Source: Nostoc sp. T09 (GTDB lineage Bacteria; Cyanobacteriota; Cyanobacteriia; Cyanobacteriales; Nostocaceae). From it: a stretch of 64,000 nucleotides of DNA. The position numbers and the translations under genes were made by a program. Where the stretch lies: positions 1-64,000 of the forward strand of contig NZ_MTAV01000020.1 of NCBI RefSeq assembly GCF_002154695.1, written 5' to 3'. Under the pieces are notes generated by a model that was given only the letters and a program-made list of their open reading frames with translations, was not told the DNA's origin and did no database searches. Shown here piece after piece: positions 3,059-14,449 of this stretch (position 1 is the first letter of the stretch; every line of letters begins with the position of its first letter).

Positions 3059-5137
<2,079 letters not shown>

Positions 5138-11592: not shown

Positions 11593-11640
11593 CTATTAAT
11601 TTAAAGCCCAATCTTCTAGAAAAAACAAGCGATCGCACAA
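11593..11640. repeat. nagZ 3'-end repeat, copy A
   Basis: Diverged copy of the last coding bases of nagZ (compare 13344-13385), here 1.7 kb away from the gene and placed directly upstream of the first toxin-antitoxin operon. The homology with copy B continues through the promoter region to about 11758. Confidence 0.7.
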
Positions 11641-11717
11641 TACCCAGATCCAACTAGTTTTTGATTTGGCGAGTAGGAGCGATCGTAAACTTAAGACAAC
11701 GCACTCAACGTCACCCT

Positions 11718-11948
11718 ATGGACTGGCAATCTAAAATCACGATTGACCCTAATATCTTGGTCGGCAAACCCATTATCAAAGGCACTCGCCTTGCTGTGGA
11801 GTTTATTATCGACCTGCTTGCTCAAGGCTGGACAAACGACGAAATTCTCCGCAATTACCCTGGTATCACTCTTGAAGATATTCAAGCGTGCCTCAGCTAT
11901 GCCAGCGCCACCCTCAAAGCAGAAAAAGTCTACGCCTTTCCTGCATAG
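11718..11948 (+). CDS. DUF433 antitoxin-like protein
   Basis: The start is set at ATG 11718 (MDWQSKITIDPNILVGKPII) because DUF433 proteins begin here; the upstream extension is not conserved and lies in repeat sequence. It is 76 residues with the DUF433 core IDPNILVGKPIIKGTRLAV followed by a winged-helix-like LLAQGWTNDEILRNYPGIT and LEDIQACLSYA. DUF433 proteins are small DNA-binding antitoxin candidates that precede DUF5615 PIN-like toxins. The stop is three bases before the next gene's ATG, so the two form an operon. Confidence 0.85.
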   Translation: MDWQSKITIDPNILVGKPIIKGTRLAVEFIIDLLAQGWTNDEILRNYPGITLEDIQACLSYASATLKAEKVYAFPA

Positions 11949-11951
11949 CTC

Positions 11952-12278
11952 ATGCGCTTTCTTGCCAACGAGAACTTTCCCAGAGATGCTGTAGAAGCCC
12001 TACGACAGCAGGGGCACTATGTAGTTTGGATTCGCACTGATGCGCCTGGGATTGCAGATCCAGAGGTGTTGAACCACGCTCAAACAGACGATCGCATTCT
12101 GCTAACCTTCGACAAGGACTTTGGTGAACTTGCCTTTCGTTCACAGTTACCTGCTACCAGTGGAATTATCCTGTTTTGGATTAAAGCTCCCTCTGGTGCA
12201 GTTGTGGCTCAAAAAGTTGCTACTGCGATCGCATCCCGAAATGATTGGGCAGGTGATTTCAGCATGAGAACTTTCTAA
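11952..12278 (+). CDS. DUF5615 PIN-like toxin
   Basis: 108 residues of the DUF5615 (Mut7-C/PIN-like) family: FLANENFPRDAVEALRQQGH at the start with the first acidic site residue, then ADPEVLNHAQTDDRILLTFD followed by KDFGELAF, which hold the conserved Asp residues of the PIN-type nuclease centre. It is the probable toxin partner of the DUF433 protein just upstream. RNase activity is inferred from the fold. A second, broken copy lies at 13112-13331. Confidence 0.85.
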   Translation: MRFLANENFPRDAVEALRQQGHYVVWIRTDAPGIADPEVLNHAQTDDRILLTFDKDFGELAFRSQLPATSGIILFWIKAPSGAVVAQKVATAIASRNDWAGDFSMRTF

Positions 12279-12286
12279 AAACACCT

Positions 12287-12332
12287 ACTATTGATTTAAA
12301 ATCCTACTTCTTGAAAAGAACAAGCGATTACA
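12287..12332. repeat. nagZ 3'-end repeat, copy B
   Basis: The sequence TTGATTTAAAATCC(T)ACTTCTTGAAAAGAACA matches the nagZ 3' end at 13344-13377 nearly exactly. It begins nine bases after the toxin stop codon and opens the second copy of the operon's upstream region. Confidence 0.8.
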
Positions 12333-12466
12333 CAATACCTAGACTCAACTAGTTTTTGATTTGGTGGCTAGGAGCGATCGTAAACTTAAGACAACGCACT
12401 CAACGTCATCTTATGGACTGGAAATCTAGAATCACGATTGACCCGAATATCCTTAGTTGCGTTTAA
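12333..12466 (+). pseudogene. 5' remnant of a second DUF433 gene
   Basis: The stretch repeats the upstream region and first codons of the intact DUF433 gene (11641-11758) at high identity. From ATG 12413 it reads MDWKSRITIDPNIL and then runs into unrelated sequence and a TAA at 12464. The break at about 12456 is the left edge of the inserted three-gene cassette. Confidence 0.85.
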
Positions 12467-12469
12467 TTT

Positions 12470-12670
12470 TCAAAGATTTTCTTTTGTGTCTCGCTTTGCT
12501 TCTATCAATTCCTGTAGTATGTCAGCCTCGTCTACGGTGTAAAACTTTTGATTTGGTTCTGCATTAATTTTGTCCATTAATGCGTAAAACGCCTCTGTAT
12601 CGTTGCGATGTTCTAACAAATAACGTTTTAACTCAGATTTACTCATTTTCACAAAGTTCGGCTTGGTCAT
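12470..12670 (-). CDS. DUF6887-like small protein, third gene of cassette
   Basis: 66 residues: MTKPNFVKMSKSELKRYLLE, HRNDTEAFYALMDKINAEPN, then an acidic tail with DEADILQELIEAKR. It resembles small cyanobacterial proteins classed as DUF6887, recalled to occur beside DUF6888. No catalytic motif is evident; it is all-helical by eye. It overlaps the preceding gene by four bases (ATGA), so translation is probably coupled. Function unknown; a role in a toxin-antitoxin-like unit is an inference from operon form and location. Confidence 0.65.
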   Translation of the reverse strand: MTKPNFVKMSKSELKRYLLEHRNDTEAFYALMDKINAEPNQKFYTVDEADILQELIEAKRDTKENL

Positions 12671-12858
12671 TCGTCATATCTCCATTTCCCATTGCGGTTG
12701 ATCACAATTCCTGTTTCTTCTCCAGCCAAGATATAGATGTTTCCTGTTCGTTCATCTAATCTCACTATGAAGATAGCTAATAGCAAAGTTGTCAGGTTTT
12801 GGCTGAGAATGAAACAAGTCAGGTTTTGTTCATAAGTCGGATAGCGCGGATACCTCAT
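12667..12858 (-). CDS. DUF6888-like small protein, second gene of cassette
   Basis: The start is placed at ATG 12858, which overlaps the TGA of the upstream gene (TGATG), rather than the TTG one codon earlier. 63 residues: YPTYEQNLTCFILSQNLTTL, then LLAIFIVRLDERTGNIYILA and GEETGIVINRNGKWRY. The pattern of a helix followed by a beta-hairpin with an NG-W ending fits the DUF6888 family of cyanobacteria as I recall it. No known biochemical role. Confidence 0.65.
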   Translation of the reverse strand: MRYPRYPTYEQNLTCFILSQNLTTLLLAIFIVRLDERTGNIYILAGEETGIVINRNGKWRYDE

Positions 12859-13043
12859 CAACGTTGATTTACTTTTTTGATAGCCGCATCACACCACAAT
12901 CTGATTGCTTGCTCCATTGCCTCGCTATGCCCAACCTCTAATTCCAGAGCTAATCGCTTGAAATTCTTCAGTAAATCTTTTGGTAAGTAGGCAGCGCTTT
13001 GGGTGTAATCGCTGTGAGTCCTTTTGTTAATTCGATTTTCCAT
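12858..13043 (-). CDS. Small RHH/antitoxin-like DNA-binding protein, first gene of cassette
   Basis: 61 residues: a basic N-terminus (ENRINKRTHSDYTQSAAYLP), then KDLLKNFKRLALELEVGHSE and AMEQAIRLWCDAAIKK. The short strand followed by two helices is the layout of ribbon-helix-helix repressors and CopG-type antitoxins. A 16-bp palindromic element (13071-13086) sits just upstream, where an autorepressor would bind. It leads an overlapping three-gene operon. DNA binding is inferred. Confidence 0.6.
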   Translation of the reverse strand: MENRINKRTHSDYTQSAAYLPKDLLKNFKRLALELEVGHSEAMEQAIRLWCDAAIKKVNQR

Positions 13044-13070
13044 AATGAGAAGACAGTTAATTTGCTGTTA

Positions 13071-13086
13071 TGCTAGCACGCTAGCA
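13071..13086. promoter_or_regulatory. Palindromic operator candidate of the three-gene cassette
   Basis: TGCTAGC-AC-GCTAGCA, a double palindrome 28 bases upstream of the ATG of the RHH-like gene, overlapping the place where a -10 region of the minus-strand operon would lie. Two adjacent self-complementary GCTAGC half sites suit a tetrameric RHH repressor. Confidence 0.55.
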
Positions 13087-13111
13087 AATATCTAGAGGAA
13101 AGGATGTATCT

Positions 13112-13331
13112 GAGATTGTCGATCCACAGGTGTTAAGCCGCGCTCAAATCGGCGATCGCATTCTCCTCAGCTTCGATAAGGACTTTGGTGAACTTGCCTT
13201 CCGTTCACAGTTACCTTGCTATTGATTTAAAATCCTACTTCTTGGAAAAAACAAGCGATCGCTAACTCAATGTATCCTGCGATCGCATCTCGAAACTATT
13301 AGGCAGGTGATTTCAGCATGAGAACTTTCTA
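13112..13331 (+). pseudogene. Broken second DUF5615 gene
   Basis: Bases 13112-13214 encode VDPQVLSRAQIGDRILLSFD then KDFGELAFRSQLP, matching the middle of the intact toxin. The frame is then replaced by a nagZ-end repeat (copy C, 13217-13277) and resumes at 13278 with the last residues, interrupted by a stop (ASRNY stop AGDFSMRTF). The N-terminal third is missing, lost at the right edge of the cassette insertion. Confidence 0.85.
13217..13277. repeat. nagZ 3'-end repeat, copy C
   Basis: A copy of the nagZ 3' end that extends further into the gene than copies A and B (it includes the counterpart of GCGATCGCTAATTCAG). It is inserted inside the broken toxin copy. Confidence 0.8.
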
Positions 13332-13348
13332 AAAACACCTGCTTTGAT

Positions 13349-14449
13349 TTAAAATCCAACTTCTTGAAAAGAACAGGCGATCGCTAATTCAGCGTGTTCT
13401 TTTAACGTATCTTGATCGAGAGTATGAACCAGATACTGGGGAGTGACAGCCAGTAGTTTATCGATTCTGTTTCTAGCTGCTGCTACTACTGATTCATCAA
13501 GGCTACCGCTACTGAGAGAATCCCCAAAATCTTTAGCGATGTGATAGGTACGTTCCAAAGATGATGAATTAATGTTACGCGAGACAATAAACAAATCGCA
13601 GCCAGCATGAATTGCCCGCGCCACTGTACCTTTGTGGTTAAACATATCTGAGACTGCTTTCATATCTAGGTCATCAGATACCACTACGCCCTGAAAACCT
13701 AGTTCTTCTCGCAGTATGGCGTTGAGAATGCCTTGGGAAAGAGTTGCTGGCACATCAGGATCTATTTTAGGAAACAGGATATGGGCCGTCATAATCAAAG
13801 GCACCTGTTCCTCAATTAAAGCTTTGAAGGGTATGAGTTCTCGATTTCGCAGATCTTCTGTAGACAGATGCAGTACTGGTAGTTCCAGATGGGAGTCCTG
13901 GCTGGTGTCACCATGACCGGGGAAGTGTTTGGCACATCCGAGAATTCCTGACTCCTGAAGTCCGAGGTAGTATTCCCGCACAGCTTTGGCAGCAGTTTCG
14001 GGAGTCGTACCAAAGGCACGAGGGCCAATGACAGGATTTTGGGGATTAGAATAAATATCTGCTACAGGTGCCCAGGATATATTAATTCCCAGAGACTTGA
14101 GTTCTATTGCTGTGGCTTTTGCTACCTGACGCGATCGCGATTGCAACAGTGAGGCATGAGGAAAACGAGTAATTGGTAAAGGTGTACGCACGACCCGACC
14201 GCCTTCATGGTCTAGGGTAATAAACATGGAATCACGTTCGGCGTATTGTCGTATCTGGTCGATCAACTCTCTAAAAGTTTGCAACCAAATTTCATAGGAA
14301 GTGCCATCCAAAAAGTTCTTCGCGAAAAAGATTACCCCTATCGGTTGTAATTCACTAAGTGCCCGTTTATCGTCGTCACTTAATGTCGTGCCGGAAACAC
14401 CGAGAATTAAATGATGCCCAAAGCCCTGGAGATGCTGCGTTACTGACAT
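13349..14449 (-). CDS. nagZ: Beta-N-acetylhexosaminidase, glycoside hydrolase family 3
   Basis: 366 residues with the GH3 barrel: LGVSGTTLSDDDKRAL start, FITLDHEGGRVVRTP, the NagZ signature KHFPGHGDTSQDSHLELP with the catalytic His/Asp pair of the loop, and VVSDDLDMKAVS carrying the nucleophile Asp in the SDD motif. It removes N-acetylglucosamine from anhydromuropeptides or GlcNAc-glycosides, normally in the cytoplasm during wall recycling. The last 14 codons (AELAIACSFQEVGF) are the sequence duplicated three times downstream. Length is typical. Confidence 0.93.
   Translation of the reverse strand: MSVTQHLQGFGHHLILGVSGTTLSDDDKRALSELQPIGVIFFAKNFLDGTSYEIWLQTFRELIDQIRQYAERDSMFITLDHEGGRVVRTPLPITRFPHASLLQSRSRQVAKATAIELKSLGINISWAPVADIYSNPQNPVIGPRAFGTTPETAAKAVREYYLGLQESGILGCAKHFPGHGDTSQDSHLELPVLHLSTEDLRNRELIPFKALIEEQVPLIMTAHILFPKIDPDVPATLSQGILNAILREELGFQGVVVSDDLDMKAVSDMFNHKGTVARAIHAGCDLFIVSRNINSSSLERTYHIAKDFGDSLSSGSLDESVVAAARNRIDKLLAVTPQYLVHTLDQDTLKEHAELAIACSFQEVGF

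Follow-up and report, generated by a model that had tools for sequence, protein, structure and literature searches.

Toxin-first type II toxin-antitoxin systems, such as HicAB and HigBA, consist of a small toxin gene followed by the antitoxin gene, and in the omega-epsilon-zeta system a separate repressor of the ribbon-helix-helix (RHH) type, acting with repeated short operator boxes, stands before the toxin-antitoxin pair. According to the available part of a report on Streptomyces, sigR starts with GTC behind a strong ribosome-binding site and is restrained by initiation factor 3 (IF3), and rsrA, which overlaps it through ATGA, has its own ribosome-binding site and is translated independently, resulting in an excess of the inhibitor over sigR (PMC5472188). 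For the KacT4 GNAT-RHH loci, the accessible portion of the article describes a conserved weak GUG start that affects toxicity and a 14-bp overlap (PMC9431474). The locus analyzed here is a cassette of three small genes, coding for an RHH, a DUF6888 and a DUF6887 protein, within a 64,000-nucleotide stretch of the Nostoc sp. T09 genome (hereafter, the window). It probably represents a toxin-antitoxin-type family in a self-regulated and mobile variant, known here from sequence alone. In the explanation that we favor, with moderate confidence, DUF6888 and DUF6887 would form a toxin-antitoxin-type pair with the predicted functions of toxin and antidote, respectively, repressed in the window variant by the RHH protein. 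The cassette comprises the following features:

13050..13086, minus strand: operator block before the RHH gene, formed by a double GCTAGC (13071-13086), ATAACAGCA and an A/T-rich tail, readable as tandem 8-bp boxes
12858..13043, minus strand: RHH (CopG/Arc-type) DNA-binding protein, presumed autorepressor, 61 amino acids (PF01402, 24 bits; PHROG Arc-like repressor, 21.8 bits)
12667..12858, minus strand: DUF6888 protein, toxin candidate, 63 amino acids from ATG (PF21828, 87.5 bits; predicted local distance difference test, pLDDT, of the model 94)
12470..12670, minus strand: DUF6887 protein, antitoxin candidate, 66 amino acids (PF21826, 74.9 bits; model pLDDT 87)

The open reading frame (ORF) coordinates agreed with the sequence-only reading of three minus-strand genes overlapping by 1 and 4 bases: the RHH stop shares one base with the DUF6888 ATG, and the DUF6888 stop shares four with the DUF6887 start. 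An alternative TTG one codon 5' of the DUF6888 ATG would yield 64 amino acids. All three proteins exceeded the Pfam cut-offs (20.5 bits for RHH_1, PF01402; 27 for DUF6888; 24.2 for DUF6887), so that the first product, for which an RHH-like layout had been proposed, is an RHH_1 member by profile, and the DUF6888 and DUF6887 proteins fall squarely within families of unknown function. The same scan returned one sub-threshold eukaryotic family. Neither downstream protein corresponded to a known toxin in PADLOC or NCBIfam, as had been anticipated; PADLOC models of known anti-phage defence gave no matches to the three proteins up to an E-value of 1. A search of phage records with the window DUF6888 gave no match, no paper naming DUF6888 or DUF6887 was found in a literature search, and the accessible part of PMC4963859 names neither family.

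Among the sampled cyanobacterial genomes, DUF6888 was detected in 58 and DUF6887 in 62 of 292, often in multiple copies; as many as 13 DUF6888 matches occurred in a single genome, and the genome of the window held 10 DUF6888 and 9 DUF6887 matches. A phylum-wide set of 149 DUF6888 loci was compiled, with repeats removed, from among the matches listed. In this set DUF6887 lay immediately downstream of DUF6888 in 154 of 155 matches, and the two genes overlapped in 141 of the 154 pairs (by four bases in 70 of those 141). The same order was found in all 84 matches from the 80 loci of named genomes. These values reproduce the type II toxin-antitoxin layout of two small, adjacent, co-directional and usually overlapping genes, and the near-obligate pairing supports the toxin-antitoxin-like form attributed to the cassette. 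Moreover, distances among DUF6888 and among DUF6887 sequences co-varied (205 pairs; Mantel r 0.73, against a maximum of 0.10 in 500 permutations), a relationship that shared descent alone could be enough to yield. Pairs were also found on plasmids. Some occupied the same chromosomal neighbourhood in related genomes (L011, L013 and L022; L104, L106 and L114), following a gene identified by eye as ClpC-like in L011 and L013 and one conserved gene in L104, L106 and L114; thus, some copies did not arrive recently. In one locus (L287) the DUF6887 domain opens a longer frame running into other conserved sequence, with a second partial DUF6887 behind it and without DUF6888.

The two partners differed strongly in how they decay. 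Scoring covered 184 sites in 180 loci, 149 of them reached via DUF6888 and 31 via DUF6887. Both genes were intact at 136 sites, seven sites showed other states and five, at locus edges, were left unscored; an intact DUF6887 stood beside a broken (22) or absent (13) DUF6888 at 35 sites, and the reverse state, DUF6888 intact and DUF6887 broken, was found at one. The resulting ratio of 35 to 1 (binomial p 1e-9, shared ancestry ignored) becomes 33 to 1 without L098 and L111, which are doubtful among the 22, differing from intact genes only by the missing recognised start. Such an asymmetry is expected if the toxin is lost first, and DUF6888 therefore looks like the harmful partner.

Start codons were analyzed in 206 distinct complete DUF6888 ORFs, taking a conserved Pro-Thr as the reference point. 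A start directly before Pro-Thr was found as ATG in 40, TTG in 35 and GTG in 3 ORFs, and 73 had a standard start further upstream. In the remaining 55, no ATG, GTG or TTG occurred within 25 codons; 50 of these had an AUU-type codon at most four codons from Pro-Thr (ATT 44, ATC 4, ATA 2), three of the 50 with a standard codon still further upstream, and five had no AUU-type codon either and may be broken or use another start. The AUU-type codons had a median ribosome-binding energy of -7.15, close to that of the TTG class (-7.0); the ATG class had -2.65 and random positions -1.9. A GGAG, GAGG or AGGA core was present 3-12 nt upstream of 43 of the 50 AUU-type codons, compared with 72 of the 354 Ile codons inside those ORFs; all 43 cores lay at 6-9 nt, mostly at 7, a peak that arises partly by construction (the core nearest 7 was retained). 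The combination of a strong site and an Ile codon was found in 45 of the 55 ORFs, against 231 of 2200 internal positions, and ATT was in excess over general Ile usage (44/50 vs. 52.5%, p 1e-7 uncorrected). Among the 73 genes with a start further upstream, the strong site was located at the AUU-type codon alone in 12 and at the standard start in 13; because of those 12, the figure of 55 may be an undercount. The DUF6887 genes of the same loci started with ATG in 192 of 205 cases and with GTG or TTG in 13, with a median ribosome-binding energy of -7.8.

The AUU-type genes, found under 40 genome labels, evolve under purifying selection just as other DUF6888 genes do: the median ratio of nonsynonymous to synonymous substitution rates was 0.064 (70 pairs) and 0.072 (325 pairs), respectively, the pairs not being independent. 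On a FastTree tree the start type required at least 19 changes, against at least 40 in 100 shuffles, so that this state is heritable yet has changed many times. A DUF6888 gene on a Nostoc plasmid (C052), where no gene is listed, was rejected as an AUU case, since it has an ATG and the gene table of the plasmid has gaps. In a literature search on AUU start codons and toxin-antitoxin systems, no related report was found in the parts of the texts available, and the newness of the feature is judged from literature searches alone.

Taken together, these patterns point to one overlapping operon in which the first gene, DUF6888, would be harmful and would be neutralized by a protein antidote encoded by the second, DUF6887. 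In many relatives translation of the toxin gene would begin at an AUU preceded by a good ribosome-binding site, leading to inefficient initiation, probably restrained by IF3, and the antidote gene would have the AUG. In the clade of the window an RHH repressor and its own operator stand in front, and the brake would probably be transcriptional autorepression. In its most specific form, a toxin-antitoxin family with AUU as the usual toxin start in several lineages, an IF3-dependent throttle and an AUG-started antidote, in which the window clade captured an RHH gene and operator instead, the proposal is possible and is put forward tentatively.

The RHH gene is a minority add-on, and the core is the DUF6888-DUF6887 pair. 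Of the 203 distinct DUF6888 genes that could be assessed, added close named relatives included, 12 had the RHH ahead of the pair, and by phmmer it stood beside DUF6888 in 2 of 149 loci across the phylum, which rules out the trio as a generally conserved unit. Hence, the conserved gene order expected by the sequence-only reading held for the pair, whereas the trio was confined to a minority clade and the RHH protein could not be retained as part of the core system. Carriers of the trio include Nostoc, Plectonema, Tolypothrix, Scytonema and Spirirestis, and one copy lies on plasmid6 (24.6 kb) of Fischerella sp. NIES-4106; close pair-only relatives lack both RHH and operator. In 11 of 12 loci of the window clade the DUF6888 gene has an ATG at the RHH stop, with TTG and ATA there in the exception (L209), suggesting that RHH repression may have taken over the limiting role.

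Upstream of position 3992 in a Brasilonema angustatum contig (L208), an unrelated gene of 102 amino acids replaces RHH and overlaps DUF6888; its product has no Pfam match and is RHH-like by eye only, and a swap of regulators is possible. A second kind of candidate regulator is a Cro/C1-type helix-turn-helix gene ending 36 bp upstream of the DUF6888 domain in L137 (G278 C104). In addition, three weak relatives of the RHH were found near replication genes on Nostoc plasmids (from six matched plasmid records), two directly upstream of DUF5906 and CyRepA1 genes and the third one gene from a VapE-domain gene; the RHH may thus descend from a CopG-like copy-control gene.

The double GCTAGC palindrome noticed before the first gene was recovered as TGCTAGCACGCTAGCA at 13071-13086. 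It belongs to a block, TAGYRTGCTAGCATAACAGCA, located immediately 5' of the RHH start in the 14 listed trio loci with few bases variable; these include two repeats or near-repeats, leaving 12 distinct copies, in whose alignment 21 of 44 columns were invariant. Compared with itself at lags from 3 to 15, the operator matched best at lag 8 (0.558), no other lag exceeding 0.394, a spacing that recalls the tandem 8-bp boxes of MetJ/Arc-type operators. The DNA further upstream was mostly unrelated between trio loci. In the 8.25-Mb assembly the 20-mer TAGYRTGCTAGCATAACAGC had a single exact site, that of the window, and one more with 3 mismatches. Of the 291 genomes examined for an operator 15-mer, a set without the trio carriers G278 and G512, that of the window alone was found to contain it. 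Within what was searched, the operator is private to the trio clade; a role as a recombination site or in a wider regulon is not supported by this single exact 20-mer site and single genome. The form of an autoregulatory operator, also part of the sequence-only reading, is supported by this conserved, 8-bp-periodic and trio-private block in 12 distinct loci, and the RHH protein would be expected to bind it.

Regarding its surroundings, the cassette lies beside and within gene pairs of the DUF433/DUF5615 type, which we take to be toxin-antitoxin-like:

11724..12278, plus strand: intact DUF433 (11724-11948; PF04255, 93.2 bits) and DUF5615 (11952-12278; PF18480, 81.4 bits), yardstick for the remnants
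12288..12451, plus strand: left remnant of a second DUF433/DUF5615 pair, covering the upstream region and the beginning of the DUF433 coding sequence, 145/163 aligned bases equal to 11593-11756
13110..13353, plus strand: right remnant of the second pair, covering a portion of DUF5615 and the sequence after it, 202/238 aligned bases equal to 12046-12300

The remnants, with identities of 89% (left) and 85% (right) to the intact-pair stretch, scored 224 and 206, compared with 32 at most for 200 shuffled versions of the right flank, and the equivalent of 11757-12045 (~289 bp) is gone from the second copy at the place where the trio sits. They bear out the view that the trio sits in, and wrecked, this second pair, into which the cassette would have moved as a single block. 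Block movement is further supported by the recurrence of the unit, from the operator to just past the DUF6887 stop, in 12 distinct loci with mostly unrelated surroundings. Around the trio and the remnants (12300-13400), the 29-base AATCCTACTTCTTGAAAAGAACAAGCGAT is present three times, a sign of repeated local duplication. In three other trio loci (L202, from 3151; L205, from 4387; L206, 4386-4940) the end of DUF6887 merges with the beginning of a tyrosine-recombinase frame, which in L206 encodes a 184-amino-acid Phage_integrase protein, and trio and recombinase may make up a single operon there; on the Fischerella plasmid a tyrosine-recombinase gene lies 1.2 kb beyond the trio. Neighbours were listed for 12 trio loci and seven chosen ones were scanned, without a control set: known toxin family genes were found about 1 kb downstream of the trio in L205 (BrnT) and L201 (YafQ), and L203 had a HicB-like match just under the cut-off.

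Other explanations were weighed against a toxin-antitoxin-type pair. DUF6888 might act as a regulator by binding nucleic acid and be inhibited by the DUF6887 protein, in a non-toxic, sigma/anti-sigma-like arrangement whose weak start limits the activator; this seems unlikely in view of the copy number (up to 13 matches per genome), the patchy distribution and the wrecked copies, and a constant neighbour gene was not seen in the loci inspected, while the structural match to MotA lies within chance range by the tool's own note. The weak RHH relatives near plasmid replication genes, together with the Fischerella plasmid copy, would suit a plasmid-derived copy-control or partition remnant consisting of a CopG-like RHH and passenger genes, but most loci have the pair without RHH, and the window copy lies on a 101.6-kb contig with no replication gene adjoining in the 5 kb inspected, which makes this origin of the trio improbable. 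A third reading, in which the trio has the RHH as its antitoxin proper and DUF6888 and DUF6887 together as toxin or accessory, is very improbable: many known systems use RHH antitoxins and the RHH and DUF6888 genes overlap, but RHH-free pairs are the rule, close relatives included.

Several observations weigh against the toxin-antitoxin interpretation itself. The DUF6888 of the window starts with ATG, and its family, a toxin by prediction, shows no sequence or fold likeness to a known toxin: PADLOC and NCBIfam gave no known toxin match for the trio proteins, and matches of the DUF6888 and DUF6887 models, built as single chains, to known structures were within chance range. Translational coupling through the overlap could tie the antidote to the weak start, and some pairs sit at the same chromosomal position across related genomes, which would be expected of a housekeeping function. 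Furthermore, the decay and start-codon counts were made among the matches listed for DUF6888 and DUF6887, with p-values that take no account of shared ancestry, and the 31 extra DUF6887 loci were hand-picked as matches without a listed intact DUF6888.

If the toxin-antitoxin interpretation is correct, two families annotated without function would become a testable toxin-antitoxin family in about one fifth of the sampled cyanobacterial genomes, and starting the harmful partner at a non-standard codon would inherently keep the antidote in excess. AUU-started toxins would be easily missed by gene finders and responsive to initiation-factor state, hidden small genes would need to be added to annotations, and the trio would represent a module trading a translational brake for a transcriptional one.

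Compared with known systems, the locus resembles HicAB and HigBA in that the small candidate toxin gene comes first, although no HicA, HicB or HigB family was detected in the Pfam scan of the trio up to an E-value of 1. It shares with omega-epsilon-zeta the RHH in front and the repeated operator boxes, but the same scan detected neither a zeta nor an epsilon homologue. DUF433/DUF5615 pairs are likewise small two-gene cassettes, present in the same genomes and side by side with the trio in the window, but belong to other protein families. With KacT4 the likeness lies in a toxin gene, here the candidate of the AUU-type relatives, with a weak start codon; as far as the available portion of that article goes, the two differ in that GUG is a standard alternative start and AUU is not, and KacT4 is a GNAT toxin whose RHH partner is the antitoxin (PMC9431474). 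Unlike the trio, sigR-rsrA is, in the accessible part of its report, a sigma/anti-sigma couple with a GTC start under redox control, with no toxin and no RHH; what it has in common with the AUU-type relatives is a potentially harmful first gene that combines a strong ribosome-binding site with a non-standard start codon and is followed by the overlapping gene of its inhibitor (PMC5472188).
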